NCBI GenBank assembly: GCA_903887845.1
Contig: CAISRC010000022.1
Span: 1-42,853, forward strand
Length of the DNA stretch: 42,853 nucleotides
Origin: an uncultured Chlorobiaceae bacterium
GTDB taxonomy: Bacteria; Bacteroidota; Chlorobiia; Chlorobiales; Chlorobiaceae
Direction of reading: 5' to 3'
Below are positions 4,913-42,853 of this stretch, piece after piece. Below the pieces are notes generated by a model. It did no database searches and was not told the DNA's origin. It saw only the letters and a list, made by a program, of their open reading frames with translations. The position numbers were made by a program, and so were the translations under genes. Numbering within the stretch: position 1 is the stretch's first letter; each line of letters begins with the position of its first letter.

Positions 4913-6139
4913 ATGGGAAGACTAACGAACAACAATCTAACAGACCTGAAGGTAAAGAAAATAACCTGCCCAACGACCAGCAAAACCATCGACGTTCGTG
5001 ATGGTGACGGGCTAATTCTCCGCGTTTCCCAATCAGGTAAAAAACACTGGCGATACGAATACAGGGTCGAAAATCAAAAAAAAGCGCTCCCTCTTGGGCA
5101 ATACCCCAGGATAAGCCTGAAACAGGCACGGGAACTCTCTCAAAAAGCAAAAGACCTTAGACTGCAAGGAATCGACCCAGCAGAACATGCAAGACAAGCT
5201 ATAACTGAAGCCAAACAGGGACAATTACGAAAAGGTGAAGAGCTTGAAAAACAGCTTGCCGAGCCTATGTTTCAAAACCTTGCCGATGAATATATCGCCT
5301 CACTTGAAGGATCTCCCTCTCAATATGGGATAAAAAAAGCCATCTACCATGATGCCGTAAAGCAATGGAAATCTCGAAAGGCAAACACCATCACCCGCAG
5401 AGAATGCGTCCTGCTTCTTGATGAAGTCAAGAAAAGAGCACCGGTCTTATCGAACCGTCTTCACTCATACCTGAAAACTATGTTCAAGGTTGGCGTTCAA
5501 CGTGGGTTAATCGAGAGTAACCCAATGAACGATATTGCAAAGCCAGCTCCTCGAGCAGATCATAGAGATAACTCAAGCAAAGCTCTTGATCAAAAGCAAA
5601 CCAAAGCATTATACAGTGCCTTACAATCAAACCCATTTGACGACATCATAAGGCTCATGCTATGGACTGGAGCCAGACCAAACGAGATCCTAAGCATGAA
5701 ATGGCAGCAAATAAAAGATGATGTCTGGACCCTTGGAGCTGGAGAACACAAAGCCGGTCACCGCCGTAACAGAACGATATCCCGTCCCCTCATAGCCCCA
5801 GCAACACAAATAATAGCGAAATACAATGGCATCCATGAAGAACTCGTTTTTCCTGGGCCAAGAGGAACAGCAATGCCAACATCAAGCCTGAACCACTTTG
5901 TTCGCAGATATCGTAACCATTATGGCATTGAAGGTTTTACCCCCCACCATGTACGTCATACCATAAGCACCAGAATGCGGGAGATAGGAATTCGGCCCGA
6001 TATTGTTGAACGAATTCTCGGCCATATCATTGACGCAGGTATAATGGATGTCTACAACAGTTATAACTACCTTCCAGAAATGAAATCAGGATTATTAACA
6101 TGGAACGAATGGATTGATGATGTAATAAAATTACAATAA
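4913..6139 (+). CDS. int: P4-type tyrosine site-specific integrase
   Basis: Tyrosine recombinase that integrates and excises the element at the adjacent tRNA-Lys att site. Residues 1-100 form the arm-binding DUF4102 domain (DGDGLILRVSQSGKKHWRYEY, LPLGQYPRISLKQARE). Residues about 115-200 are the SAM-like core-binding domain. The catalytic domain shows the first Arg in WTGARPNEIL (about residue 256), His-x-x-Arg in HHVRHTISTRM (about 345-348), the second His in LGH (about 371), and the nucleophile Tyr in MDVYNSYNY (about 380). Length (408 aa) is normal and the active site looks complete, so it is probably functional. It starts 168 bases inside the att remnant and points into the element. Confidence 0.93.
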   Translation: MGRLTNNNLTDLKVKKITCPTTSKTIDVRDGDGLILRVSQSGKKHWRYEYRVENQKKALPLGQYPRISLKQARELSQKAKDLRLQGIDPAEHARQAITEAKQGQLRKGEELEKQLAEPMFQNLADEYIASLEGSPSQYGIKKAIYHDAVKQWKSRKANTITRRECVLLLDEVKKRAPVLSNRLHSYLKTMFKVGVQRGLIESNPMNDIAKPAPRADHRDNSSKALDQKQTKALYSALQSNPFDDIIRLMLWTGARPNEILSMKWQQIKDDVWTLGAGEHKAGHRRNRTISRPLIAPATQIIAKYNGIHEELVFPGPRGTAMPTSSLNHFVRRYRNHYGIEGFTPHHVRHTISTRMREIGIRPDIVERILGHIIDAGIMDVYNSYNYLPEMKSGLLTWNEWIDDVIKLQ

Positions 6140-22008: not shown

Positions 22009-22009
22009 T

Positions 22010-22028
22010 ATTAACCTTTGGGGTTAAT
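22010..22028. promoter_or_regulatory. Palindromic operator candidate upstream of higB
   Basis: ATTAACC 22010-22016 and GGTTAAT 22022-22028 form a perfect 7-bp inverted repeat with a 5-base centre, 38 bases before the higB start and 2 bases after the helicase stop. HigA-type antitoxins repress through such palindromes. It could also be a small stem, but no T-run follows. Confidence 0.45.
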
Positions 22029-22065
22029 AAGTTTTAATGCGCTGATAAATTTCGTTACCTTGTAG

Positions 22066-22401
22066 ATGAATATTCGATACCACACACGCAAGCTGGAAAA
22101 AAGCGTTGAAAGCTTTTCGGCTATTAAAAAGGATTACGGGCAAAGGGCAAACAAGGTCAAGCAGCGCCTTGAGGATCTTGTTTCTGCAGCAAATCTGGAG
22201 GGCATGCGCTCAATTCCTGCAGCCAACTGTCATGAACTCAAAGCTGATAGAGCGGGTGAAATAGCTGTTGATATTTCACCTAATCATCGCATAATCTTTA
22301 AGCCCGACCATAATCCGTTCCCGCTGAAAGAGGATGGAGGACTTGAATGGAAAGAAGTTACAAGTATTGTCATTACAGCAATTGGTGAAGATTATCATTA
22401 A
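22066..22401 (+). CDS. higB: HigB-like RelE-family toxin
   Basis: Small (111 aa) ribosome-dependent mRNA interferase candidate. It shows the RelE/HigB pattern: N-terminal basic helix (RKLEKSVESFSAIKKDYGQR), a second helix (KVKQRLEDLVSAANLEGM), then beta strands CHELKADRAGEIAVDIS and HRIIFKPD, and the C-terminal VTSIVITAIGEDYH. The strands and terminal tail match 'system killer' toxins. The cognate antitoxin gene starts 13 bases downstream, the usual toxin-first HigBA order. The pair is inserted within the restriction gene run, where it may stabilise the cluster or act as a second abortive layer. Confidence 0.85.
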   Translation: MNIRYHTRKLEKSVESFSAIKKDYGQRANKVKQRLEDLVSAANLEGMRSIPAANCHELKADRAGEIAVDISPNHRIIFKPDHNPFPLKEDGGLEWKEVTSIVITAIGEDYH

Positions 22402-22414
22402 AACGAATAAAACT

Positions 22415-23530
22415 ATGAATAATCACTATAAAACAAGAGCTGATATTGCGGTGGCTCGTGAAATAATTTCCAGTCCGGGTGATACACTTGCTGAGCATCT
22501 TGAATATACAGCAATGACCCAGACCGAGTTAGCAGAACGGATGGGCAGACCAAAAAAGACCATCAACGAAATCATTCAAGGCAAAGCGCAAATAACCCCC
22601 GAAACAGCACTGCAACTTGAGCGCGTTGTTGGAATCCCTGCTGATTTCTGGATAGAACGTGAACGACGCTATCGCTTACAGCTTGCTGAAATTAATGAAG
22701 CTGAAAAACGCATTACTTATGCAGAGTGGGCAAAGAAATTTCCCTGCAAAGAAATGAAAGCTAAGGGGTGGATTAACTTTGATGGCAATGTCACTAATGC
22801 CATCAATGCGCTGCTCTCCTTTTTTAACGTAGCAAGCCCTGACGTATACGAAAATTTTTATCACGGTCAGGTCTATGCAACCGCCTACCGCATGAGCGAA
22901 AAAAACAGCAAAGACCCATACTCTGTTGCAGCATGGCTTCGGCAAGGAGAGCGGCAGGCCGAATTGCTTCAGGTGCCTAATTTTGACAGGAAAGCTTTTG
23001 AGGCAACCTTGCAGGAGATAAAAAAGCTGGTGATCAGCGGCAACGATGATTTTTTCCCGGTGCTTCAGGAGCTGTGCTGCAAAACCGGTGTAAAGGTTGT
23101 CCATACTCCCTGCCTGCCAAAAGCGCCCCTGCATGGTTCAACCCGCTGGGTCAAAGGCAACCCCCTGATTCAACTCTCAAACCGCTTGAACCGCAACGAT
23201 ATTTTCTGGTTTACCTTTTTCCATGAAGCGGCCCATATCCTGAAACACAACAAAAAGGATGTTTTTGTAGAGGGAATGGAGTACTCCTGTGACGGCAAAG
23301 AAAAAGAGGCTGAAGCCAATGCCTTTGCAGAAGAGTGCCTGATGAGCCGCAAGGAGGAAAAAGAGATCATGCTGAGCGGTGGATTTGAAAAAGAAGATAT
23401 CCAGCGTTTCGCCACCAAAATCGGCACACACCCGGCGATTGTTGCTGGCAGGCTGGCAAACCGTGGGGTGATGAAACAGCATGAGGGCAATGTTTACGGC
23501 TTTTATAAAAAAGTTGAACTGAAGGGTTGA
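22415..23530 (+). CDS. higA: HigA-type antitoxin fused to an ImmA/IrrE metallopeptidase domain
   Basis: Protein of 371 aa from ATG 22415 (MNNHYKTRADIAV); longer starts would overlap higB. An XRE-type helix-turn-helix occupies about residues 30-85 (MTQTELAERMGRPKKTINEI, KAQITPETALQLERVVGIP). The C-terminal half has an ImmA/IrrE (M78) Zn-peptidase motif, FTFFHEAAHILKH (HExxH), with an ESLM-like EECLM segment downstream. Long HigA antitoxins of this kind neutralise HigB, repress the operon and may cleave a regulator under stress. The active-site His and Glu are present. Next gene begins 10 bases after its stop. Confidence 0.87.
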   Translation: MNNHYKTRADIAVAREIISSPGDTLAEHLEYTAMTQTELAERMGRPKKTINEIIQGKAQITPETALQLERVVGIPADFWIERERRYRLQLAEINEAEKRITYAEWAKKFPCKEMKAKGWINFDGNVTNAINALLSFFNVASPDVYENFYHGQVYATAYRMSEKNSKDPYSVAAWLRQGERQAELLQVPNFDRKAFEATLQEIKKLVISGNDDFFPVLQELCCKTGVKVVHTPCLPKAPLHGSTRWVKGNPLIQLSNRLNRNDIFWFTFFHEAAHILKHNKKDVFVEGMEYSCDGKEKEAEANAFAEECLMSRKEEKEIMLSGGFEKEDIQRFATKIGTHPAIVAGRLANRGVMKQHEGNVYGFYKKVELKG

Positions 23531-23540
23531 AACCGAAGTA

Positions 23541-25298
23541 ATGAAACCAAATCAAAAGTTAGAACTCACCTGGATAGGCAAAGGGCAAGAACCAAAGCTG
23601 GAACCGAGGATTCTCATAGAGCAGCCTGAATACAGTTATGGTGATCCGGATAGCGGGAATATGCTGATTCAGGGGGATAATTTGCTTGCACTGAAGGCGC
23701 TGGAGCAGGAGTATGCCGGGAAGGTTAAATGTATCTACATCGATCCGCCGTATAACACTGGGTCAGCATTTGAACATTATGACGACAATTTAGAGCATTC
23801 TATATGGTTGAATTTGATGAACCAGCGTATTGTTTTTTTGCGGAATTTAATTTCAATGGATGGTTTTTTTTGCTGTCATATCGATGATAGCGAAGGTCAA
23901 TATCTAAAAGTTTTATTAGATGAAATATTCGGCAGAAAAAATTATTTGACAACCCTATTTGTAAGAGTCAGATATCCTGATAAAACACTAAAGCAAGATA
24001 TGGATTTTCATAAGGAAATTGAACAAGTTCATGTGTATAGGAAAGAATATGGAGCAAAACCGAATCTTAATCAATCAGAGTTATCGTTTGATAAATTTTG
24101 TTTTTTTATTTCAGAGTTAAGCCAAGGTAAGGAGGTCATACTTGGAGGTAAACGAGTTGTTGTTTTTCAAAAAGGAGAATATGTAATTGAGAAAAAATCA
24201 GAGGGTAATGCTTTTGGTTTAAAAGAGATATGGGCAACAGGAAGTATATTGGATGGTAATTCATCGGGTCGTTTTTTTCGAGATAACCTAACTGGTCGTT
24301 ATGAAATTGATGGCCTTGGTGTCTTGTACAAGGTTTATGGAATAGGAGATGACCGATACGATTATCGGTATTTCACTGGACCACAAAGACTTGGTGCGAC
24401 AAAAGGCAAATACTTTCAGGGCGTTCCGGTTGATAACTTAAATAGTGAAAATAAGATAACGGAACAACCTATTAATAATTTTTATGATTTAGCATCAAGT
24501 TTTGGTAATTGCAGGACAGAAGGCGGTGTTGGCTTTAGAGGTGGAAAAAAGCCTGAAATGTTACTAAGTCTGATTCTTCGGCATTTTTCTAATGAAGGCG
24601 ACCTTGTCCTCGACTCCTTTCTTGGCTCCGGCACCACCGCTGCCGTAGCGCAGAAAATGGGCAGGAAATGGATAGGCATTGAACTTGGTGACCATGCAAA
24701 AACCCATTGTGTGCCTCGTTTGAAGCAGGTTATTGCTGGTTCAGATCAGGGCGGTATCAGCAAAGCAGTTGAGTGGCAAGGCGGTGGAGGCTTCAAGTTC
24801 TATACCCTTGCTCCGTCACTCCTGAACAAAGACAAGTACGACAACTGGATTATCAGCAAGGAGTACAACCCTGATATGCTTGCCGCAGCCATGGCGAAGC
24901 AATCGGGGTTCAGGTATGAGCCTGACGGGCATGTGTACTGGAAGCAGGGGCGCAGCAGCGAAAAGGACTACATCTACACCACCACCCAGTTCATGACCGT
25001 GGAGATGCTCGAAAAGATCAGGGAGGAGATGGGCCCTGATGAAAGCTTGATGATTTGTGCAAAAATATACCAGCGTGAATGCGAGAATCGCTTTCCGAAC
25101 ATCACCGTCAAAAAAATCCCCCAAATGCTTCTCGGCAAGTGCGAGTTCGGTAAGGAGGATTACAGCCTGAACATTGTCAATCTGCCGCACGATGACGTTG
25201 CAGCACCATCTGATGATGAGGCTATCGATGAACGTATTGATGAAAATCCCGGCAATGAACCAGCAAGCCAGTCAGCTCAAACCAACCTCTTCTACTGA
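23541..25298 (+). CDS. Type III-like adenine-specific DNA methyltransferase (Mod)
   Basis: N6-adenine methyltransferase, 585 aa, that would mark host DNA and give sequence specificity to the partner Res. Motif IV is IYIDPPYNTGSAFEHY near residue 68. Motif I is LDSFLGSGTTAAVAQ near 360, followed by KWIGIELGDHAK. Motif IV before motif I with a target-recognition domain (TRD) between them is the beta-class order of type III Mod proteins. The DNA for the TRD part (about 23780-24590) is much richer in A/T than both conserved flanks, which suggests exchange of the recognition domain. The gene starts 10 bases after higA and its stop is 5 bases before the Res start. Confidence 0.9.
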   Translation: MKPNQKLELTWIGKGQEPKLEPRILIEQPEYSYGDPDSGNMLIQGDNLLALKALEQEYAGKVKCIYIDPPYNTGSAFEHYDDNLEHSIWLNLMNQRIVFLRNLISMDGFFCCHIDDSEGQYLKVLLDEIFGRKNYLTTLFVRVRYPDKTLKQDMDFHKEIEQVHVYRKEYGAKPNLNQSELSFDKFCFFISELSQGKEVILGGKRVVVFQKGEYVIEKKSEGNAFGLKEIWATGSILDGNSSGRFFRDNLTGRYEIDGLGVLYKVYGIGDDRYDYRYFTGPQRLGATKGKYFQGVPVDNLNSENKITEQPINNFYDLASSFGNCRTEGGVGFRGGKKPEMLLSLILRHFSNEGDLVLDSFLGSGTTAAVAQKMGRKWIGIELGDHAKTHCVPRLKQVIAGSDQGGISKAVEWQGGGGFKFYTLAPSLLNKDKYDNWIISKEYNPDMLAAAMAKQSGFRYEPDGHVYWKQGRSSEKDYIYTTTQFMTVEMLEKIREEMGPDESLMICAKIYQRECENRFPNITVKKIPQMLLGKCEFGKEDYSLNIVNLPHDDVAAPSDDEAIDERIDENPGNEPASQSAQTNLFY

Positions 25299-25303
25299 CC
25301 CCT

Positions 25304-27982
25304 ATGAATGCCAAAGCCAACTACATCAAACAACGCTTGTCACTGAGGGAACCACTGAAGGAGTCACTGGATATTGTTGCCGTTTTAGCTGATCTGCTCG
25401 AACTGAAAAAAGGCGCCGATCTTGCTGCTGAACTGGAGAAGGTTCAAGCGCTCTATCCCTCCTGCAAGGATTTTGAGCGTGAGTTCCCCTCACTCTGCTT
25501 TTCCATCGCCACCGGTGTCGGTAAAACAAGGTTGATGGGCGCCTGCATCAGTTACCTCTACCTGCAAAAAGGCATCCGCAACTTCTTTGTGCTTGCCCCC
25601 AACCTCACCATCTACGACAAGCTCATCAAGGATTTCGGTGACCCCGGCTACCAGAAATATGTTTTTGCCGGAATTACCGAGTTTGTGCACAACCGGCCAG
25701 TCATCATCACCGGCGAAAATTATAACCAGGTTGGTGCACTTTTCAGCGGCGAAGAGGTCCGCATCAATATCTTCAACGTCTCGAAATTCAATGCCGAAAA
25801 CAGAGGCACCAAAGAGGCCGGTGTTGCCAAGCCCCCAAGAATCAAACGCCTCTCGGAATACCTCGGTCAATCCTACTGGTCATACCTCTCCGGCCTGAAC
25901 GATCTGGTCATCCTCATGGACGAAGCCCACCGCTACCACGCCGATGCCTCCAAAAAAGCCATCAACGAACTGCAACCGGTGCTTGGTATTGAACTGACCG
26001 CTACCCCAATCGACGAAAAAGGCAACGCCTTCAACAATGTTGTCTATGAATACTCCCTTGCCAAAGCGCTTGCAGACGGCAAATATGTGAAAAATCCTGC
26101 CGTTGCAACCCGGAAAAATTTTCGGGCTCAAGGCCTTTCCGCGCAGGAAATTGAAAAAATCAAGCTCGAAGACGCCATCAGCGTTCATCAGGCAACCATC
26201 AATGCTCTTGAAGTCTACGCCCGGAACAACGGAGTCCGCAAGGTAAAGCCCTTCATCCTTGTGGTTTGCAGCAGCATCACCCACGCCCGCGAAACCTTCG
26301 ACTACATTACCTCAACCTCCTTTTTCAACGGCACCTTTAACGGCAAAGTCCTGCAAATCGACTCCAGCACCAAAAAAGACGATGAAATCGAACGCCAGTT
26401 CATCGACCTCGAACGCTACGACAACGACATCGAAATTGTCATTCACGTCAACATGCTCAAAGAGGGCTGGGATGTCAACAACCTCTACACCATCGTTCCT
26501 CTGCGTGCCGCCAATGCCTCAGTCCTGATTGAACAAACCATAGGCCGCGGCCTGCGCCTCCCGTACAATGGCGAAAGAACCGGCGATGATGCTGTCGATA
26601 AACTGACCGTTCTGGCACACGACAACTTCGACAAGGTCATTGAAGCCGCACAAGACCCCAACTCAATATTGCAGAAAGTCTCGTTCATTGAGCTTGATGT
26701 CACCGATCTCACTCCAAACACCGAGGTGATACAGTCACCCTCCAAAGTCCAGGTTGAAGTAACCCGTGAAGAGAAACTGATTGCGGCTATGACGGATGAA
26801 AAAGAGAAGCAGGTTGCAACCAACCGCCTCGATGCAAAAAAAGCCATCATCCACCTCCTGCCAACCATGAACGGCGATCAGGGCGTAACAAGAGTGGCCG
26901 ACCTGAACAAACCCGAGGTCAAGCAATATGTGATGGAGCAGATTGAGGCAGAGCAGTCAAAAGGTCAGCTCGGTATGTTTACACAGCAACTCTTGCAGGA
27001 AGCCGACGCTATCTACGAAGAGGTCGTCACAAACTTTAAAAACAACATCATCGAAATTCCCCGGATGGATCTCGTCCAGGAAGAGGTCAAAGTCTGGTTT
27101 GAAGTGTTTGATCTTGATGTTTCGAAAGGCTTTACCTACGAACCACTGAGCGAGGAAATCCGGGTCGTCGAACTCACCGGCGACCGGAAGACCACCGACA
27201 TAGGCGTTAAATACGGTGCATATTCCTCACAAAGCCCTGTCAATCAGGTCATCTCTGAACTCGTCAACTATCCGGAAATCGACTACGACGACAATGCTGA
27301 ACTGCTCCACAAACTGACCAATCAGGCCATTGATACCATTTCGGCAAACCTCAGCGTCGCATCAAAATTGATACTCGTTGTCCGGCAATACCGCAAATTC
27401 ATAGCAGGCAACATCTACGACCAACTCAAAGCACACCTGAAAATCAGTGAGCCCGCCTGGCAGGATCCAAAAGTCCTGCCCTTCATCAAAATCGAAGACT
27501 GGAACTTCTCCGCACTCAAAGACGGGCGCCGCCACTACAAAGACAGCATCACCCCGACAAGCCTCATTCCCAAACTGGTCTTCACCGGCTTTGAAAAAGC
27601 CTGCCATTTCGAATACAAATTCGACTCAAAAACAGAAAAAGAGTTCGCCTATATCCTCGAAAACGACACAACCGTCCTCAAATGGCTGCGCCCCGCACCA
27701 AACCAGTTTCGAATCTACTGGGCCAGCAACTCCAGCCGCTACTACCCCGACTTCGTCGTTGAAACCATTGAAAACATCTACCTCGTCGAAACCAAAGCCG
27801 CCAACGAACTCGACAGCACCGAAGTTCAGGAAAAAACGGCAGCAGCTCTTCGGTATTGTGCCTATGCCACAGCCTTTACCACTGCCAACAATGGAAAAGC
27901 ATGGAAATATCTTTTAATTCCCCATGATCAGGTCACAACAACATCAAGCTTTGAATTTCTTTTGGGAAGGTATAAGGCGTAA
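25304..27982 (+). CDS. Type III-like restriction subunit (Res): helicase plus PD-(D/E)XK nuclease
   Basis: DNA translocase-nuclease, 892 aa, that pairs with Mod to cut unmethylated foreign DNA. Walker A SIATGVGKTRLMGA lies near residue 70, DEAH-type motif II VILMDEAHRYH near 205, motif III ELTATPID near 230, and motif VI EQTIGRGLRLPY near 410. The C-terminus has RYYPDFVVE...IYLVETKAANE (about 808-830), a PD-(D/E)XK nuclease site. All key residues are present. Start 5 bases after the Mod stop indicates one operon. With the upstream SNF2 gene this makes a larger than usual type III-like set. Confidence 0.9.
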   Translation: MNAKANYIKQRLSLREPLKESLDIVAVLADLLELKKGADLAAELEKVQALYPSCKDFEREFPSLCFSIATGVGKTRLMGACISYLYLQKGIRNFFVLAPNLTIYDKLIKDFGDPGYQKYVFAGITEFVHNRPVIITGENYNQVGALFSGEEVRINIFNVSKFNAENRGTKEAGVAKPPRIKRLSEYLGQSYWSYLSGLNDLVILMDEAHRYHADASKKAINELQPVLGIELTATPIDEKGNAFNNVVYEYSLAKALADGKYVKNPAVATRKNFRAQGLSAQEIEKIKLEDAISVHQATINALEVYARNNGVRKVKPFILVVCSSITHARETFDYITSTSFFNGTFNGKVLQIDSSTKKDDEIERQFIDLERYDNDIEIVIHVNMLKEGWDVNNLYTIVPLRAANASVLIEQTIGRGLRLPYNGERTGDDAVDKLTVLAHDNFDKVIEAAQDPNSILQKVSFIELDVTDLTPNTEVIQSPSKVQVEVTREEKLIAAMTDEKEKQVATNRLDAKKAIIHLLPTMNGDQGVTRVADLNKPEVKQYVMEQIEAEQSKGQLGMFTQQLLQEADAIYEEVVTNFKNNIIEIPRMDLVQEEVKVWFEVFDLDVSKGFTYEPLSEEIRVVELTGDRKTTDIGVKYGAYSSQSPVNQVISELVNYPEIDYDDNAELLHKLTNQAIDTISANLSVASKLILVVRQYRKFIAGNIYDQLKAHLKISEPAWQDPKVLPFIKIEDWNFSALKDGRRHYKDSITPTSLIPKLVFTGFEKACHFEYKFDSKTEKEFAYILENDTTVLKWLRPAPNQFRIYWASNSSRYYPDFVVETIENIYLVETKAANELDSTEVQEKTAAALRYCAYATAFTTANNGKAWKYLLIPHDQVTTTSSFEFLLGRYKA

Positions 27983-28035
27983 TAATTCTGGTAAAGAAAA
28001 AGCATTCTTTATTAAATGATAATAAATTTGAAATT

Positions 28036-29388
28036 ATGGGTTGGAACAATTATTTGAATGAAAACAGGTTAAAAACCACCTCAAGAATTAAAGAAAATGA
28101 TGATAGAAATGAGTTTGAAAGTGATTTTGGAAGAATTATTTTTAGCCCCGCCATAAGGCGAATGCATGATAAGACGCAGGTGTTCCCTCTGACTACAGAT
28201 GATAATATTCATTCAAGATTAACGCATTCATTAGAAGTAATGTCTGTTGGTGAGTCAATAGCATTAAATGTTTTAAAAAATAGTCAGTTTAAAGAGGTAA
28301 TACAGAGTTATAAAAATATTGGTGATATATATAGGGTTATTCCAGTAATTGTCAAAAATGCTTGTTTGGTTCATGATATTGGTAACCCACCATTTGGCCA
28401 TTTTGGCGAGACTGTTATACAAGAGTATTTTTCAAAGTATTTTAAAACGCTTACTGAAAAGAGTAGGTTTAAACTTAATGACTTGCAAAAACAAGATTTT
28501 GAAAAATTCGATGGTAATGGTCAAGGTTTTAGGGTGTTAACAAAGTTACAGATGCTTGATGATAAATATGGACTAAATTTAACATTTGGCACGCTCGGAG
28601 CTTATTTGAAATATCCAAATCCTGATCAGCTTGAGCCGGAAATCCTTTCACGTAAAAAAAGAGGGGTCTTTCAGTCTGAAAGAGATTATTGCGAAAAAAT
28701 TATGAATGGTCTTTCGCTTATGAATGGATCAAAACCAATTAGACATCCGCTTTCATTCATTATGGAGGCAGCTGATTCAATTTGTTATTTGATTATGGAT
28801 ATTGAAGATGGGTATAATAAAAAATGGTATGGTTATGAAGATATAAAAAAAGGACTACAGGGTGTTTATAATATAAATAAAGTGTTTATCGGAATTGAAA
28901 AAAATCATAAAAGTGATATTGCAAGAATTGTTAATTTGAGGTTGTCTCTTATAAGACAATTGGTTCTTTTATCTGTGAATAATTATTTAATTAATATTAA
29001 AAAAATATGTTTAGGTGATTACAATTGCGAATTAATAGATGACGATGATAGTCGGCTTGTAATTGAATTAAAAGCCTTTTGCAAGAAAAATATTCTTCAG
29101 AAAAAAGAAATTATAGGCCTTGAGTTAACCGGCCATTCTGTATTGAAAGGATTGTTAGATTATTACATTGAATTCTGTTTCGATAATTCTGATAAGTATA
29201 GGTATAGAGCTTTAAATATGATATCAAAAAGTGTTCTTGATATATCTTTGCTTGAGAATAATAAAAAAAAGTTTGAGGATATGGATGATTATTATAAAAT
29301 ACGCGTAATTGTTGATTACATCACCGGTATGACGGATCAATATGCATTAAACCAATACCAGAGATTAAGTGGCCAAAAGATTAATTGA
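28036..29388 (+). CDS. dgt: dGTPase-family HD triphosphohydrolase
   Basis: Hydrolyses dNTPs (classically dGTP) to deoxynucleoside plus triphosphate. The N-terminus matches the family closely: FESDFGRIIFSPAIRRMHDK, TQVFPLTTDD, then SRLTHSLEVMSVGE with the first metal His (about residue 63), and LVHDIGNPPFGHFGE with the HD pair (about 114-123). Length 450 aa is close to the family norm. Base composition is far more A/T-rich than the restriction genes just upstream, so it was probably acquired separately. dGTPases are known anti-phage proteins that deplete nucleotide pools. Its 3' end overlaps the next gene by 20 bases, so a joint function is likely. Confidence 0.88.
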   Translation: MGWNNYLNENRLKTTSRIKENDDRNEFESDFGRIIFSPAIRRMHDKTQVFPLTTDDNIHSRLTHSLEVMSVGESIALNVLKNSQFKEVIQSYKNIGDIYRVIPVIVKNACLVHDIGNPPFGHFGETVIQEYFSKYFKTLTEKSRFKLNDLQKQDFEKFDGNGQGFRVLTKLQMLDDKYGLNLTFGTLGAYLKYPNPDQLEPEILSRKKRGVFQSERDYCEKIMNGLSLMNGSKPIRHPLSFIMEAADSICYLIMDIEDGYNKKWYGYEDIKKGLQGVYNINKVFIGIEKNHKSDIARIVNLRLSLIRQLVLLSVNNYLINIKKICLGDYNCELIDDDDSRLVIELKAFCKKNILQKKEIIGLELTGHSVLKGLLDYYIEFCFDNSDKYRYRALNMISKSVLDISLLENNKKKFEDMDDYYKIRVIVDYITGMTDQYALNQYQRLSGQKIN

Positions 29389-35099: not shown

Positions 35100-36377
35100 C
35101 TACCCCTTCACCGAAATAATATCACTCCACCTCGTAGTATAGGAAGGCGAAAGCCGATCCTGATTGGGTTTCCACCCCACCGAATTTTCCGAAGCCAGCC
35201 GCAGCGCACCGCGCCCATACCGCTCATTAATGCCATCCATAACCTGCATCAACGTTTTGCTCTGCTCACTATCAGCCGCCGCCTCATCAGCAAAAAGCGA
35301 AAGAGTCCTGCCAGCCAACGCAACCGGCGAGAGTTCACTGACAATCACCCCGGCTTTCTTGTAAGCATACCCGGCGCGAAAGAGCACATCCAGCACCGAT
35401 TGAGCTGCACGAATCAGCGTCATGGAGTCTTGAGTCGGGTACGGTAACGAAATGGTTTTCGTCCCCCAGTACCGCGCCCCCTCGTTGTCATCAAACGGGC
35501 TGGTGCCAATAAAGAGCGTCAGCATCGAGGCGACCGCCTGTTCCTTGCGCAGTTTCACCGCACACTTGCCCGCAAAGGTAGCAACTGCCTGATGCAACTC
35601 GTCAAAGGTCGTTACACTCTTTCCGAAAGATCGTGAAGTGCAGATGCTCTGCTTTGCAGCTCTGACCAGCTCCATCGGCAAACAGGAAGTCCCGTTCAGC
35701 TCCGCCTGCAGCCTTGCGCCAGTGATGTGCAGATGCTTGCGCACCCAGGGCACAGGTGCCGCCGCCAGATCAGCAGCGGTGTTGATGTTGCGTGCAGAGA
35801 GCAGCTTGCTCAACTGCCGTCCGATACCCCAAACATCCTCAACCTTCGTCATGGCAAGCGCTGAAGCAATCAATTCTGCACCATCAAGCAGACAAACGCC
35901 CTGATAGACCGGATTCTTTTTAGCCAGCCGATTGGCCACCTTGGCAAGCGTCTTGGTAGGCGCCATACCGACACAAACCGGAATACCGGTATGCTGCCTG
36001 ACTGTCCGACGGATAAGGCGCGCATACTCTGCCAGATCATACCGCCCGAAACTGCTCATGTCGAGAAACGCTTCATCAATAGAATACAGCTCAATATCAG
36101 GAGCAAGAGCCGCCGGTGTCATCATCACCCGTGACGACATATCGCCATACAACGGATAGTTCGAAGAAAAGACCGCGACCTTATGCCTACGCAGTAAATC
36201 CCGGCACTTGAACACCGGAGTCCCCATCTTGATACCAAGCGCCTTGGCCTCCTCAGACCGTGCAATAATGCAACCGTCATTGTTCGAAAGCACCACCACC
36301 GGACGAGTGCGCAGCGCAGGGTTAAAGACCCGTTCACACGAGGCATAAAAGTTATTGCAGTCAACCAGAGCAAACAT
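35100..36377 (-). CDS. umuC: DNA polymerase V catalytic subunit UmuC
   Basis: Y-family translesion polymerase, 425 aa from ATG 36377, which has GGAGG 8 bases upstream. The N-terminus shows FALVDCNNFYASCERVF (first metal Asp), PVVVLSNNDGCIIARSEEAK and IELYSIDEAFLDMS (the catalytic SIDE motif, near residue 100). The HhH/thumb region VEDVWGIGRQLSKLL and the little-finger and C-terminal UmuC domains follow; length matches E. coli UmuC (422 aa). It works with cleaved UmuD to copy past damaged bases during the SOS response. The gene starts 20 bases after the umuD stop, so they form an operon. Catalytic residues are intact. Confidence 0.95.
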   Translation of the reverse strand: MFALVDCNNFYASCERVFNPALRTRPVVVLSNNDGCIIARSEEAKALGIKMGTPVFKCRDLLRRHKVAVFSSNYPLYGDMSSRVMMTPAALAPDIELYSIDEAFLDMSSFGRYDLAEYARLIRRTVRQHTGIPVCVGMAPTKTLAKVANRLAKKNPVYQGVCLLDGAELIASALAMTKVEDVWGIGRQLSKLLSARNINTAADLAAAPVPWVRKHLHITGARLQAELNGTSCLPMELVRAAKQSICTSRSFGKSVTTFDELHQAVATFAGKCAVKLRKEQAVASMLTLFIGTSPFDDNEGARYWGTKTISLPYPTQDSMTLIRAAQSVLDVLFRAGYAYKKAGVIVSELSPVALAGRTLSLFADEAAADSEQSKTLMQVMDGINERYGRGALRLASENSVGWKPNQDRLSPSYTTRWSDIISVKG

Positions 36378-36397
36378 AGGGAGAACCTCCAGCCAGT

Positions 36398-36850
36398 CTA
36401 TCGCGGTTTGTGGATAACGTATGCGACAATCCCCCAAACCAGAAAGTCATTCTCCTCAATGATTCTGATCGGCTTAAACTCCGCATTGGCAGGAACGAGG
36501 TAGATACCATCATCCCGCACTGAAAGACGCTTCACGGTAAATTCACCATCAAGAAAACAGACCGCAATATCCCCATCCTTCGCCTCAAGCGCCTTGTCAA
36601 TAACCAGCAAATCCCCATCCTCAATCCCCGCATCAATCATCGAGCTACCCTTCACCCGAGCGAAAAACGTCGCCGCAGGATGCTTCACCAGCTCCCTGTT
36701 CAGGTCCAGCGCAATCTCCACATAATCCTCCGCAGGCGAAGGAAAACCCGCCGAAACACCCGCAGCAAAAAGCGGCAACTCAAGCGATGTCGCCAAATCA
36801 GCCGCGTAAAAGTCCAAGACCGGATCGGAATGTATTCGGGAAAGTCTCAT
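36398..36850 (-). CDS. umuD: SOS mutagenesis protein UmuD (S24 self-cleaving)
   Basis: LexA/UmuD-family protein of 150 aa from ATG 36850 (MRLSRIHSDP); an in-frame ATG at 36883 is possible. The cleavage site is Ala-Gly in GVSAGFPSPAEDYVE. The catalytic Ser lies in VKGSSMIDAGIEDGDLLVID and the Lys in EFTVKRLSV. RecA-stimulated self-cleavage gives UmuD', which forms Pol V with UmuC. It is slightly longer than the E. coli protein (139 aa) at its N-terminus. A palindrome 47-63 bases upstream is a candidate SOS operator. Confidence 0.92.
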   Translation of the reverse strand: MRLSRIHSDPVLDFYAADLATSLELPLFAAGVSAGFPSPAEDYVEIALDLNRELVKHPAATFFARVKGSSMIDAGIEDGDLLVIDKALEAKDGDIAVCFLDGEFTVKRLSVRDDGIYLVPANAEFKPIRIIEENDFLVWGIVAYVIHKPR

Positions 36851-36896
36851 GGCGAGTGTGCATAGTAATATTGAACAAACCATCAAGCAGAACCGC

Positions 36897-36913
36897 TTTT
36901 GCAATATGCAAAA
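36897..36913. promoter_or_regulatory. Palindromic operator candidate upstream of umuD
   Basis: TTTTGCA-ATA-TGCAAAA is a perfect 7-bp palindrome with a 3-base centre. It sits 47-63 bases upstream of the umuD ATG. LexA boxes vary among bacterial phyla, so the assignment as a LexA site is inference from its place and symmetry. Confidence 0.5.
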
Positions 36914-36997
36914 AAGCAGACAATGAGCAGCCAGGACGGCGTTCACTTTGCAGACGTGTTTCAGGCGTTGGTCTCCCATACCGAATCAGAAAGGATA

Positions 36998-37549
36998 CTA
37001 CTTGAAGACCGTTTTGGCTACAGCATGCCGAATCATGTCCTTGGTAGTAAAGGCTGAATGAATAAGGCGGATACGCTCTTCAATGCCAGTTTGGCCTTTT
37101 TGTCGTGCACAGATTTCACGCAATTGAGGAGCAAACCCGATGCCAAGGAGGCGCATACCTTCCAGTATGCCAGTGGTCGCTTCCACAAGAAAAATAGCAA
37201 TGGCATTTGTCTCTGACGCCATCCAGATTCTGCGGGTTTCATCATCAAATTTTGAGATATCAAAAGAGATATCAAAACGGAACTCTTCCCCGAAATCCAC
37301 AATCAAAAAAGGAATATCCCGCTGCTCAAAAAGGTACACAGTTATTTTACCAGTTGTAAACAATCTTTTTTCTTTTCGGGAAATCTTTCGGAGCGACATC
37401 AGGAGATGGAAAAAATTCTCTGTCGGTATAGCAATATTCATCTCCCGACCGGTACAGTACTGTTCAAGAGGAAAAAGTTCTCCAACTCGGTACGCGTCCA
37501 TAATTCTAAAGGTTTTGCTGGTATAAACCTGGTTTTGCTGATTGTCCAT
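36998..37549 (-). CDS. Uncharacterised protein upstream of umuDC
   Basis: Protein of 183 aa from ATG 37549 (MDNQQNQVYTSKTFRIMDAY); a longer TTG start at 37597 would reach into the repeat array and is less likely. It contains LMSLRKISRKEKRLFTTGKI, DIPFLIVDFGEEFRFDISFD and TRRIWMASETNAIAIFLVEA, a mixed alpha/beta soluble protein. I recognise no family. It is co-directional with umuDC but separated by 147 bases that hold the operator candidate, so it is probably transcribed apart. Its AT-rich DNA contrasts with the repeat array next to it. Confidence 0.65.
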   Translation of the reverse strand: MDNQQNQVYTSKTFRIMDAYRVGELFPLEQYCTGREMNIAIPTENFFHLLMSLRKISRKEKRLFTTGKITVYLFEQRDIPFLIVDFGEEFRFDISFDISKFDDETRRIWMASETNAIAIFLVEATTGILEGMRLLGIGFAPQLREICARQKGQTGIEERIRLIHSAFTTKDMIRHAVAKTVFK

Positions 37550-37606
37550 AAGGTAAGAAGGATAAACAAAATATTCGATACTCAATCCGGCACGCAAGCA
37601 GTTTGC

Positions 37607-37684
37607 GCGAAAGCGGAGTACCGCCTTCGCTCATGCACGCCCAGCCTCACCACCCAGCATGGCACCCTTGAGTACAAGAGTGCC
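37607..37684 (-). repeat. Hairpin pair, module copy A
   Basis: First hairpin 37607-37630: GCGAA-a-GCGG, loop AGTA 37617-37620, CCGC-c-TTCGC. Second hairpin 37661-37684: GGCAC-c-CTTG, loop AGTA 37671-37674, CAAG-a-GTGCC. Each single mismatch is A-C on the plus strand, hence G-U on the minus strand, where both stems become 10 bp without a break and the loop reads TACT. Confidence 0.7.
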
Positions 37685-38084
37685 ACAGCAGGCCCGCAAC
37701 AACCGCATTGCTTCGTTGCCTCCGCAGCCTGCAACTCCGCTACGCTCCACTGCCTGCTGCTCCAGCGCCTTGCAGCGGCATGGGCAGCATGATGCAAGAG
37801 CCAAGCAAGCAGGCCATCGGCAGCCGTATTGCTTCGGGGCATGGCAGTCAAGCCTCTTCGCTTCGCTCAGTGCAAATGAGCGGTAGCAGGCAAGTTCAGT
37901 GGCTGGTGCGGACAGCGCAACGGAGGTGGATCGCCATTTTGAAAGCAACGGTTTCAGCGCTGTCCACCCCAGAACCCGCACCGGCAAAGCTCCGTGCGTA
38001 CCGGTGCTGGAGCCAAGCAAGCACGCCACCGGCAAGCCGCAAAGCTTCAGGGCTATTGAGGAGCAAGCAGGCAAGCCGTATGGC

Positions 38085-38161
38085 GCGAAAGCGGAGTACC
38101 GCCTTCGCTTCTGCACGCCCGCCGCACCACCCAGCATGGCACCCTTGTGTACAAGAGTGCA
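38085..38161 (-). repeat. Hairpin pair, module copy B
   Basis: First hairpin 38085-38108 is identical in stem and loop to copy A. Second hairpin 38138-38161 has loop TGTA instead of AGTA and its outermost pair is lost (G-A). Confidence 0.65.
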
Positions 38162-38420
38162 AAAGCAGGCCAGCATCTGCCGCATTGCCTCATCGCCTAC
38201 GCCGCAAGCTACTCCGCTTCGCTCCACTGCCTGCTGCTCCGGTGCTTTGCAGCGGCATGGGCAATGCAGTGTAATCGAGTGGCTGGCAGGCCACCGGCAA
38301 GCCGCATTGCTTCGGGGCATGGCAGCCAGCAGCATCGCTTCGCTTGCTGCCGACTGCCGCCCCTCGCAGCGGCAGGGGCTGTTCGGTGCAATTGAGAAGC
38401 AAGCAGGCAAGCTAAATGCA

Positions 38421-38498
38421 GCAAAAGCTGCGTACAGCCTTCGCTTCTGCACGCCCAGCCGCACCACCCACCATGGCGCCCTTGAGTACAAGAGCGCC
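38421..38498 (-). repeat. Hairpin pair, module copy C, with compensatory changes
   Basis: First hairpin 38421-38444: inner stem GCTG/CAGC in place of GCGG/CCGC, so one G-C pair became T-A on both arms; loop CGTA; a second A-C mismatch in the outer stem is again G-U on the minus strand. Second hairpin 38475-38498: GGCGC/GCGCC in place of GGCAC/GTGCC, so an A-T pair became G-C. Confidence 0.7.
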
Positions 38499-38853
38499 AA
38501 TATAAAGCAAGCTTGCGCCCTGTGCTTTCGGTGCCCGTTACTTCCGCTCTGCGCAATTGGCGCTCGCTCGCTCAGCCAGGCAGCGCCAATTGCACTGCCG
38601 CTCCAGCGTCGTTCACCTCCAGCCCGGTGACGCGCAAATGAAGAAAGAATAGTGCAGCTCCACCGCACGTCAGGCAGTGCGCACCCTGCTTTATGCCACT
38701 TTGCACGCTTGGTGCTGGCGCACTGCCTGACGACCGGCTCCGCTGTGGTAGCATGGCACAACACAGCATTGCCGCTCCTTCGATTCGGCTTTGCCTCACT
38801 CACTTCGGGCAACGCTGCAATGTGCATGAAGAGCGTCTGCGCGCTTCGCTTGC
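38476..38853. repeat. Long direct repeat, copy 1
   Basis: About 380 bases that return with high similarity at 39036-39423. Inside are a 12-bp inverted repeat (38553-38564 with 38582-38593) and a perfect 15-bp inverted repeat (CGTCAGGCAGTGCGC 38668-38682 with 38718-38732). It ends in the motif ATGAAGAGCGTCTGCGCG, part of which recurs at 41.1-41.6 kb. Confidence 0.8.
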
Positions 38854-39035
38854 CAGCAAGCCAGAGGTGGCAATGCAACACCGGCACCCAGCAAGCCTTC
38901 TTTCACCTGCGCGGGAAGAACTCGCTTCATTCCGCCGCCGCTCCGCTTCGCTGCACGCAGCTCCATGAATCGACCCGCTCCGGCTCCAGAACGTGCAGAG
39001 CGCCTTGTCAGAGACGGTCAGCAGGGGGAAGAAAA

Positions 39036-39423
39036 GCGCCCTTGAGGAACAAGAGCGCCAAGAGAAAGCAAGCTTGCGCCCTGTGCTTTCGGTGCCCGTC
39101 ACTTCCGCTCTGCGCAATCGGCGCCCGCTCACTCAGCCAGGCAGCGCCGATTGCACTGCCGCTCCAGCGCCGTTCACCTCCAGCCCGGTGACGCGCAAAT
39201 GAAGAAAGAATAGTGCAGCTCCGCCGCACGTCAGGCAGTGCGCACCCTGCTTTGTGGAGCTTTAACGCTTGGTGCTGGCGCACAGCCTGACGACCGGTTC
39301 CGCTGTGGTAGCATTGCACAATACAGCATTGCCGCTCCTGCGATTCGGCTCCGGCAGGCTCCGCCTCACGCACTCGGGAAAAGCTGCAATGTGCATGAAG
39401 AGCGTCTGCGCGCTTCGCTTGCT
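39036..39423. repeat. Long direct repeat, copy 2
   Basis: Second copy of the 38476-38853 repeat. In its inverted repeat (39114-39124 with 39144-39154) one pair is C-G where copy 1 has T-A, a compensatory change. The 15-bp inverted repeat is kept with one A-A mismatch (39229-39243 with 39278-39292). The middle of the long loop differs (tttgtggagctttaa). Confidence 0.8.
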
Positions 39424-39430
39424 GGCGTCG

Positions 39431-39876
39431 TAACCATACATCAGGCGGCTGGTGCCATTGGCCGGTCGGGGCCGGCCAGCATTACATAATGGAAATTATA
39501 CACCCGGCGCTGGCGCGCCTACACGGAGTACCGTGTTGTATAATTTGCCATTATGTAAAGTCAGGTTTTGGCGAGCCACCTTACCTTTGGCGTTCACAGC
39601 CAACAGCTCAGTCGTACTACGGGGATCCGTGGAGTAAACAGAACCAACAACCAGAGCACCGGCATGTACTCAAGGTAAAATATCGCATCCTTCCACTTGA
39701 AGCTCCCCTTCAGGCTCATTCTTTAGCTCCGTTCACGTCTGACACTGTGCCATTAATTATTAATTTACAGCAATAAATTCTGTTACTTGCACCTTCATGA
39801 GAAAGAGTAACAAGTAGAGATCTTGTAAGTAATGAACGAATAACTTACAAGAATAGAATAAGGAGCGAGGTTGAAC
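39431..39876. other. Gene-free stretch before the glycosylase-like gene
   Basis: It holds a hairpin TGGCCGG/CCGGCCA (about 39458-39477), the 77-base palindromic element at 39482-39558, and then about 300 bases with no clear signal. An AT-rich stretch at 39740-39860 probably contains the promoter of the next gene. Confidence 0.4.
39482..39558. repeat. 77-bp palindromic element with a nested NGTA hairpin
   Basis: Arms 39482-39502 and 39537-39558 pair over 21 bases with one bulged base (TTACATAATGG then AAATTATACA). Inside, directly before the right arm, ACACGG 39521-39526 and CCGTGT 39531-39536 flank the loop AGTA 39527-39530. AT-rich arms around a GC-rich centre suggest a small non-autonomous mobile element (MITE-like) or a cruciform. 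No clear target duplication is seen. Confidence 0.65.
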
Positions 39877-40680: not shown

Positions 40681-42236
40681 CTCGTGTGGAAGAGATTTGT
40701 CAACACTCATGCTGGGCTGGTCAACGTAGCGGCATAATAATCAGTCTTAAAGGCAATCAAGAAGCTTCTGGATAACCGCCATATTGCAGCCCGGCCTATC
40801 GCGCTTGAACTCCGCCGGTGTGGTATGGTGACACCACAGAAGCATCTTCCCGCAAGCGGGTGGCGTGGTTGTCATGGTGGCAGGGTCGAGTCTCAGTGTA
40901 TTCAATGCGTTCAACAGCCGCGCACAGAGGGAAGATCGCAACTGTTCAACGCCCTTTACCTCTACGCGCTCCGCTTGGAACTCGCGATATACTGCTCAGT
41001 CACGCTGCTTGCAATGGGCTGCTGTGCTGGCTGCCTGCTTTGCAAGGAGCAAGCAGTGCGCCTTCGCAATGAAGAGCTTTCTGCGCGCTTCGCTTGCTGG
41101 CAGGCCAGGCAGCGGCGGGAATGCGGTCCAGAAGAGCTGGCTATGGCTGCTGCGTGCGGGGCAGGGGCGGCGCGAAAGGGCTGTTCATCCGGGGGTGCAA
41201 TTGGCTGCCTCCGCAGGGCTGTTGCGGAACCACCGTCATGTCGTCAGGCAGCCGCGCCAAATCATCATGCTGTTCCTCATACTCTCGGGCGGTCTGCCCG
41301 GCGCATCTTATTTTCTCCGCGCTCCGCTTGGGGCGATGTACTGCTCAGTCATGCTGTTTGCTGAGTACGTCCAGTGAAGTCTGGTGAAATCGTGCAAGGC
41401 AAACAGCCCGCCTTCACAATGAAGAGCGCAAGGTAAAAAGAGTTCGGGGTACCTCACTCCATTTACCTGCAAAAGCGGCGCTGTTGGGGTACCAACCACG
41501 CCGCATGGCGATATACTTACTTTGTCATGCCGCTTGCAGGAAGAAGAGCAAGTGTCATGCCAAAGTAAATGAAGAGCGCAAGGTAAAAAGAGTTCGGAGT
41601 ACCTCACTCCTTTTACCTGCAACTAAAAGAACTCCGCAGCCTCCGGTGTACCGGAAGCTGCTCCGCGAATGCGGGGGGAGTACCCCCCACACCCCCGGTT
41701 GGTATGGGTGGTGTTTGTTTGGTTGCTGGGCGTGCGTCGGTGCGCGTACCGGTAGCTTTTGCCCGCTTGTTGGTTGCCGTTCGGTGGCAGCGTCTTTATG
41801 GGCTGGCTCCGCCCCCCATTTCCCCCTGGTGCTCGGGCGTAAGTCTCCAGCCTCCCCCCAGTGCGGCAGCCGGTCAGCGTTCACCAAGCCCCCATCGCTG
41901 CATTTTTCTCTCTTGTCACGCCCTGAACTTATGGCTTTACTGGTGCAGCCTTGCCTGCTGGACCTTGTGCCATCGGCGCAGTCAGGCAAGTGTTTCAGTG
42001 GGTTCAAAAAAACAGACGAATCACGGGACAGAAAGGATGGGTTTTTGGTAATTCATTTTGAAAAAATCCGGGTGAAACAGAAGAGCTGCATTATTTATTT
42101 GGTAAAAATTAAGTCAGCAAAAATCGTACTTAACTATATATTATTTAATAATTTAAATTCTTTTTTCATCTTTATTTTCTTATATTTAAGTGTATTTAAA
42201 AAGTGTTTCTAATGTCTTAAAAATAGGAGGCTTGTA
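40681..42236. repeat. GC-rich repeat region with three bipartite modules and several hairpins
   Basis: I see no credible gene in these 1.55 kb. A sequence of the type GCGAT-TACT...GTCA-GC-GCTTGC occurs at about 40984, 41333 and 41506, each followed 60-90 bases later by AATGAAGAGC (41070, 41417, 41568). After the last two, a hairpin AGGTAAA...TTTACCT with inner GGAGT/ACTCC repeats (41424-41474 and 41575-41622). NGTA-loop hairpins are at 41475-41504 (GCGGCG, GTTGG, loop GGTA), 41639-41658 (TCCGG, loop TGTA) and 41673-41688 (GGGGGG, loop AGTA). From 42080 the sequence becomes AT-rich up to the next gene. Confidence 0.65.
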
Positions 42237-42714: not shown

Positions 42715-42853
42715 TGAGCACACCGGAGTATAGTGTACCACCTCTACCGGAGCAAAGTGTACCAGCGATTCCGGAGCATAGTGTACCACCTGTACCGGAG
42801 TAAAGTGTACCAGGTATACCGGGCGAAAGTGTACCACCCAATCATGTCAGATT
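42715..42853. mobile_element. End of an IS21-type element with five 24-bp terminal repeats
   Basis: Five contiguous units of 24 bases (42723-42842) share CCGGAGYAWAGTGTACCA at each start and differ in the last six bases. Runs of such repeats ending in GTGTACCA are typical of IS21-family tips, where transposase binds. A TG dinucleotide at 42715 could be the tip. The istA/istB genes would lie beyond the window. Confidence 0.65.

Follow-up and report, generated by a model that had tools for sequence, protein, structure and literature searches.

The DNA studied here contains a long non-coding region of hairpins, in which the two sides of a stem have changed together from one copy to the next. It lies in a window of 42,853 nucleotides from an uncultured Chlorobiaceae bacterium (contig CAISRC010000022.1); "the window" means that whole stretch. 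Such changes raise the question of whether base pairing itself is being maintained, and if so, on which strand, as RNA or as DNA, and to what end.

The main array has a G+C content of about 0.62, against 0.44-0.48 in its flanks, and has no match in Rfam or Pfam. The borders of its blocks coincide with hairpin feet. That the array codes for protein (a 418-aa minus-strand ORF, and others) was considered and rejected: these frames have no Pfam match, whereas the conserved neighbours do. The features are collected in Table 1.

Table 1. Hairpins, array blocks and neighbouring genes in the window.
Feature	Position	Strand	Details
Tyrosine integrase, phage/island type	4913-6139	+	Presumed left island end
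umuC and umuD homologues (Y-family polymerase; S24 peptidase)	35100-36979	-	
ORF, 199 aa, adjoining array	36998-37597	-	56% homologue beside radC on conjugative plasmid pPAES01
Main non-coding hairpin array	37600-39561	- (sense)	Strand from loop and wobble orientation
Two-hairpin module, copy 1	37607-37684	-	GGCACTCTTG-TACT-CAAGGGTGCC, spacer, GCGAAGGCGG-TACT-CCGCTTTCGC
Two-hairpin module, copy 2	38085-38162	-	Loop TACA; upper hairpin's outermost pair broken
Two-hairpin module, copy 3	38421-38498	-	Variants GGCGC/GCGCC and GCTG/CAGC; G.U at 38423 (minus)
Hairpin	38553-38593	-	GCAATTGGCGC...GCGCCAATTGC
Long hairpin, 20 bp	38663-38737	-	CCGGTCGTCAGGCAGTGCGC...GCGCACTGCCTGACGTGCGG; second copy 39224-39297; z -6.3 on minus strand
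Hairpin copy	39114-39154	-	GCAATCGGCGC...GCGCCGATTGC; copy of the 38553 hairpin, within a ~561-bp tandem duplication
Folded dif mimic	39482-39561	-	CTTTACATAA-TGGCAAA-TTATACAACA / G-TACT-C hairpin / GGGTGTATAA-TTTCCA-TTATGTAATG
Inner hairpin of dif mimic	39521-39536	-	ACACGG-TACT-CCGTGT
Second hairpin block, same strand	41475-41698	-	41475-41504, 41517-41568, 41582-41617, 41636-41661, 41663-41698

Paired changes and the folding strand

An earlier, sequence-only reading described four paired changes that leave stems intact. Three of these can be read directly from the sequence: GGCAC/GTGCC (37661-37684) against GGCGC/GCGCC (38475-38498), GCGG/CCGC (37613) against GCTG/CAGC (38427), and T-A at 38558/38588 against C-G at 39119/39149. 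In 22 of 27 copies of the two-hairpin module, the pair behind the first of these is G-C; in 3 it is A-U, and in the other 2 it is broken. The GCGG/GCTG pair shows two same-branch double changes among 43 copies, and a one-sided change in one copy (L066, module start 3206). The 38558/38588 pair is TA in 12 of 15 relatives, CG in 1 and TG in 2.

The fourth change, at 38423, was described as G.U-compatible. This holds on the minus strand, but on the plus strand, which that reading had used, the G-C pair turns into A.C. The stem is therefore kept intact on the minus strand only. Absent from the account was the module copy at 38085-38162, where the lost outermost pair of the upper hairpin (TTGCAC/GTGCCA at 38139-38160, within 38137-38162) leaves a broken stem. 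Pair-breaking module copies also exist elsewhere, with GGC/GGC, GGCGC/GAGCC and GGCGC/GCACC.

The choice of strand matters more generally. Where the plus strand has a mid-stem A.C mismatch, the minus strand has a G.T wobble, for example in GCGAAGGCGG-TACT-CCGCTTTCGC and GGCACTCTTG-TACT-CAAGGGTGCC. Because such mismatches become G.T or G.U wobbles there, the minus strand is the sense strand, and it is also the one that folds better. RNA folds of the minus strand beat shuffled sequences for three modules, with z-scores of -4.7, -2.4 and -4.8. The polarity of the array rests on its loops and these fixed wobbles.

Further repeats lie at higher coordinates. At 41418-41472 and 41568-41622 there are two 55-nt copies, 96% identical and 150 bp apart, each of which ends a GGTAAAA...TTTTACC hairpin with apex GGTACYCC. 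A 24-nt unit, CCGGAGYAWAGTGTACCA..., is found four times in tandem at 42723-42842, adjoining the contig end.

Covariation across Chlorobium

By a covariance model, 22 of 65 Chlorobium genomes contain the module, in 1-7 copies that are often clustered; the genome of the window (G000) has 5. Copy 1 scores 105 bits with this kind of model (R1), which was partly built from that copy. The modules sit within non-coding arrays of 2-5 kb, and in those inspected the long-stem hairpins of the G-TACT-C type are nearly all co-oriented. GTACTC is found 88 times in sense and 4 times in antisense over 12 arrays, some of which overlap or are related, so that the counts are not independent.

On the sense strand, TACT is by far the top loop among strong hairpins with four-base loops, and the G-TACT-C loop is common to eight or more stem types. 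Relative to shuffles, sense folds better than antisense (Wilcoxon p 2e-6, on overlapping windows). In one homologous position the entire stem has been swapped, with the hairpin and its loop kept: CATGCGGCAGGCTG-TACT-CAGCTTGCTGCTTG (L128:7501) corresponds to GCTGCCGGGTGCG-TACC-CGCACCGGGCGGC (L133:13270). Several arrays are colinear between species over 1-1.5 kb, at 84-89% identity. The arrays are modular, and the order of their parts varies between islands.

Relatives were found within the genus only, except for one isolated 26-nt match in G055. Besides that match, the only relative outside the genus is a stretch of some 130 bp on the plasmid pPAES01, upstream of radC. When an 18-mer core is combined with flanking structure, the named matches are "uncultured Chlorobiaceae" MAGs, several of them with lake-sample names. 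Five matches in other phyla fit the handful that chance would give for an 18-mer.

Some other ideas were tried and dropped. Spread by phage or plasmid found no match among phages or viral contigs, and one partial plasmid match, which has no hairpins. A genome-wide motif of the uptake-sequence type does not stand out, with GGTACTCC occurring 102 times against 90 in the reversed control. One hairpin copy (L042:4612, compared with L128:7919) is cut at its loop, between GGTA and ATTG, with its 3' half replaced by a different sequence; as this is a single case, the idea that rearrangement breakpoints fall in loops was set aside.

The first alignment held 27 copies of the two-hairpin module. In it, 9 pairs show a double change, against 2.8 after shuffling (0 of 500 shuffles reach this) and 2-4 in slid controls. 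Of its cells, 84% are paired, compared to 38-51% in the slid controls. For a stricter count, 43 distinct copies were gathered by a sequence-only profile, so that pairing was not selected for, and changes were counted on a tree. This yields 7 same-branch compensatory events, where random matchings give 1.95 +/- 1.43 and reach 7 in 10 of 2000 cases. Against a tree-based null no single one of the 24 module pairs is significant, the best E being 0.36.

Five hairpin families were then pooled (the two-hairpin module and the window families 38553, 39480 and 41517). Together they show 24 same-branch compensatory events, against 2.98 +/- 2.00 expected (0 of 2000). The largest contributions come from the palindrome of family 39480, with 10 against 0.46, and from the 41517 type, with 6 against 0.93. 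The latter hairpin, at 41517-41568, has 10 covarying pairs in 17 sequences. This supports selection on pairing in the stems, in aggregate, as an excess of compensatory change beyond phylogeny and composition. The support is strongest in two families that the sequence-only reading had not used, namely the 41517-41568 hairpin type and the palindrome (39482-39561).

That reading had concluded that pairing, and not sequence, is maintained, and had asked for a covariation test of the R-scape type. The test is passed in aggregate, but no individual pair of the module passes. Selection on pairing is supported in the same aggregate sense, but the stronger wording does not hold. Most positions in the module stems are near-invariant in sequence, the GTACTC loop is conserved as well, and many one-sided changes break pairs.

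The branch counts for the five families are 24 double changes, 28 changes from Watson-Crick to G.T, 22 to A.C and 65 to other mismatches. Since G.T and A.C are similarly frequent (28:22) and other mismatches number 65, the constraint is moderate. The near equality also means that the substitution pattern points to no single folded strand and is silent on RNA versus DNA. Covariation alone cannot tell RNA from folded single-stranded DNA.

The dif-like palindrome

Central to the array is its palindrome at 39482-39561, beyond the stretch (37607-39154) in which the four changes lie. It consists of two inverted dif-like sites (39484-39556), with centres of 7 and 6 nt. The dif site of the host is TTGTATAA-TATATA-TTATGTAAAG, at G000:C92:1884-1907, on a different contig than the array (C22). 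Its arms with a 6-nt centre are found in most of the 65 Chlorobium genomes, usually as a single copy; a combined pattern with centres of 6-7 nt is present in 50 of the 65, and its reversed control in 0.

In its left half, the palindrome has arms identical to those of the host dif around a 7-nt centre (TTGTATAA-TTTGCCA-TTATGTAAAG); its right half is an inverted partner that has degenerated. The 7-nt centre agrees with that of the host dif only at its first and last base. As single-stranded DNA the palindrome folds with a z-score of -8.25, with a single bulge that is located in the centre.

Of the 13 copies in the palindrome alignment, 12 are complete, meaning that both sides are present. Both Xer-arm stems are 100% paired in all 12; four positions have double changes, and one-sided changes are absent. 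Over the structure, the 13 copies contain 14 double-change cells, against 4.0 when shuffled and 0 in slid controls. There is good support for the palindrome being a folded dif mimic. Templated correction between the arms could also account for its perfect double changes.

Two more folded dif-like pairs, in G067 and G030, came from a pattern search with the arms in opposite order, and each encloses a GTACTC hairpin. The link between the loop motif and folded Xer-like sites therefore does not depend on the arrays.

Other dif-like sites were seen along the way. G018 has a perfect extra one, TTGTATAA-TAATAA-TTATGTAAAG (L048:2828-2851, G018:C82), with a lone two-hairpin module some 100 bp away. Perfect host dif sites also form inverted pairs, with spacings of about 0.1 and 1.4 kb, at G084:C159:171-298, G026:C108:12513-13936 and G010:C85:3576-4993; these are possibly other small Xer-exploiting elements of Chlorobium. 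In the genome of the window, contigs C81, C95 and C96 share their first ~90 bases, which include TTTACATAACCCTCATTAT, a dif-like sequence where a repeated element ends; this element interrupts the assembly. In 7 of 9 carrier genomes the final centre base of the mimic agrees with the host dif centre, which is too few, and too confounded by phylogeny, for the idea that it tracks that centre to be kept.

A close parallel is the phage CTXphi, the type case of IMEX. Its attP(+) consists of opposed dif-like sites that pair on single-stranded DNA (PMC3089051, PMC5357621). They lie about 90 bp apart, fold on the (+) strand into attP and have centres of 12 and 7 nt; in the 7-nt-centre site, as in that of the mimic, ...CCA stands before TTATGT (PMC3089051). 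As with attP1 and attP2 of CTXphi, the inverted dif-like sites of the mimic are close together, and a forked hairpin on one strand makes up the Xer site. Like an IMEX site, the mimic is an inverted dif-like pair with intra-strand pairing, judged by fold and covariation, and arms that are those of the host dif.

An IMEX is integrated at dif and has no integrase of its own; the array is on C22, dif is on C92, and the island carries a tyrosine integrase. The island is therefore not an IMEX. Unlike the CTXphi site, the mimic has a loop segment of about 35-75 nt, both of its Xer-arm stems covary between species, and it sits among the many hairpins of an array, in an integrase-bearing island away from dif. 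Its host is Chlorobium, where CTXphi is a filamentous phage of a gammaproteobacterium.

Islands, rival explanations and a possible mechanism

Along the window come the integrase, prophage-like genes for terminase, scaffold and amidase, a DISARM-DrmD-like helicase together with restriction genes, then umuDC and the array. The defence-like block, at 19105-29388, has a DISARM DrmD-like helicase, a methyltransferase, a restriction helicase and a dGTPase. After it come genes for a HipA-like kinase and a DUF3037 protein, both of which are also beside the array in L042. Across the arrays examined, island genes encode tyrosine integrases, DUF3987 and PriCT_1 proteins and RadC or UmuDC, along with Abi, TIR or restriction functions. 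The island proteins that were scanned included no relaxase.

The plasmid pPAES01 of Prosthecochloris aestuarii (conjugative, NC_011061) resembles these islands, with 81% identity over the ~130 bp upstream of radC. As in the window, umuC is next door, and so is a homologue of the window's 199-aa ORF. Unlike the arrays, it has 0 GTACTC hairpins in the 32 kb examined. A long-range stem of about 15 bp upstream of radC, CTTTTTGYGCAAGGG...CCCTTGCGCAAAA, is kept both in Chlorobium islands (L128:6347-6477) and on pPAES01 (NC_011061 32927-33055).

What could such an array be for? It may be a long structured non-coding RNA, in which the minus strand is transcribed over 2-5 kb and many G-UACU-C hairpins bind a protein, as a sponge or scaffold would. 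One-strand polarity, an invariant loop on variable stems, sense-strand G.U wobbles, minus-strand module folds that beat shuffles and aggregate covariation all fit this. We nevertheless consider it rather unlikely. No Rfam 15 family matches at gathering or permissive thresholds, and there is no clear promoter or terminator excess for a single transcript, as the terminators in the window (14 against 6.8 +/- 2.8) are scattered over both strands. The modular arrays with their island-dependent order, and the equal frequency of one-sided G.T and A.C changes, also argue against an RNA, and a dif mimic with host-identical arms fits DNA and not RNA.

The hairpins might be passive: palindromes or REP/MITE-like repeats that propagate themselves or undergo quasi-palindrome correction, with double changes that reflect arm copying and not selection. 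REP and BIME sequences, associated with RAYT transposases, are likewise short imperfect extragenic palindromes in pairs (e.g. PMC2817692, PMC3733652). Modules here are dispersed and tandemly duplicated, hairpin feet are block borders, and the Xer-arm helices show only perfect double changes without a one-sided cell, as gene conversion between arms would give. The copy number is low, however, with at most 7 modules per genome, unlike the high-copy short palindromes of REP type. The array also differs from REP/BIME in being co-oriented and in conserving a loop (tested) and not a foot tetranucleotide (the foot was judged by eye). No Y1 (TnpA_REP) transposase, PF01797, was found in the genome of the window, nor an IS200/RAYT Y1 transposase in the module-rich G013, G018, G019, G024 and G028; an origin from REP/RAYT or IS200 was rejected for this reason and for the low copy number. 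Passive repeats would not lead one to expect colinearity between species, and arm correction leaves the fixed mid-stem wobble, the invariant one-strand loop and the polarity unexplained. On balance this is unlikely. Far less probable still is an integron-like cassette array, whose hairpins would be atypical attC sites on which an integron integrase acts. attC sites are strand-specific folded recombination sites, conserved in structure, with bulged bases and arranged in same-strand arrays. The same-strand hairpins, extrahelical bases and covarying stems here do resemble them, and 13 of the 65 Chlorobium genomes have an integron integrase over the cut-off. But the GTT/AAC triplet that attC requires is replaced by AAT/ATT in 5 of 12 palindromes, including the one in the window, and the other hairpins are without the motif. 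The arms are those of Xer and not IntI, matching the host dif, and the integron integrase model TIGR02249 has no match in the window's own genome at E 1e-30. The missing integrase and triplet already mostly refute the integron reading. A likely attC does exist at L042:373-446 (G024:C50), with GCCTAAC...GTTATGC and paired L boxes, about 2 kb from a junction of radC and array; G024 also has an integron integrase (G024:C28).

The reading we prefer, with a probability of roughly 45%, is that the array is a cis-acting non-coding region that folds while single-stranded, includes a folded Xer site, and is carried on integrative islands of Chlorobium. It probably does its work in folded, single-stranded form when DNA is moved. 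Selection on the folding of one defined strand would lead to compensatory changes, polarity and fixed wobble pairs.

The minus strand would fold in a single-stranded stage, which may be transfer, rolling-circle replication or repair gaps. The folded mimic would then form a double-stranded Xer site, which XerC/XerD could bind and recombine in one strand exchange, comparable to attP(+) of CTXphi. The island's own integrase, the position of the array away from dif and the mostly mismatched centre speak against this, so that a Xer reaction between mimic and dif is a proposal. The G-TACT-C hairpins would be recognition or folding elements of the same Xer process. As only one hairpin in the array resembles a Xer site, the others would have this role by association, and a single-stranded role may extend in the same way to the whole array.

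A more far-reaching version, which we consider doubtful, is that these arrays are a new platform for single-stranded DNA folding: same-strand hairpins with an invariant G-TACT-C loop on a kilobase scale, anchored by a folded dif mimic. The islands would exchange, integrate or replicate as single-stranded DNA through the host Xer system or a hairpin-binding protein, independently of integrons and IS200-type elements.

Folded single-strand recombination sites have been described for integrons and filamentous phages (PMC3089051). If the proposal is true, this principle would reach another phylum and another kind of element, the defence islands of Chlorobium, where it may offer a route for the exchange of defence cargo.
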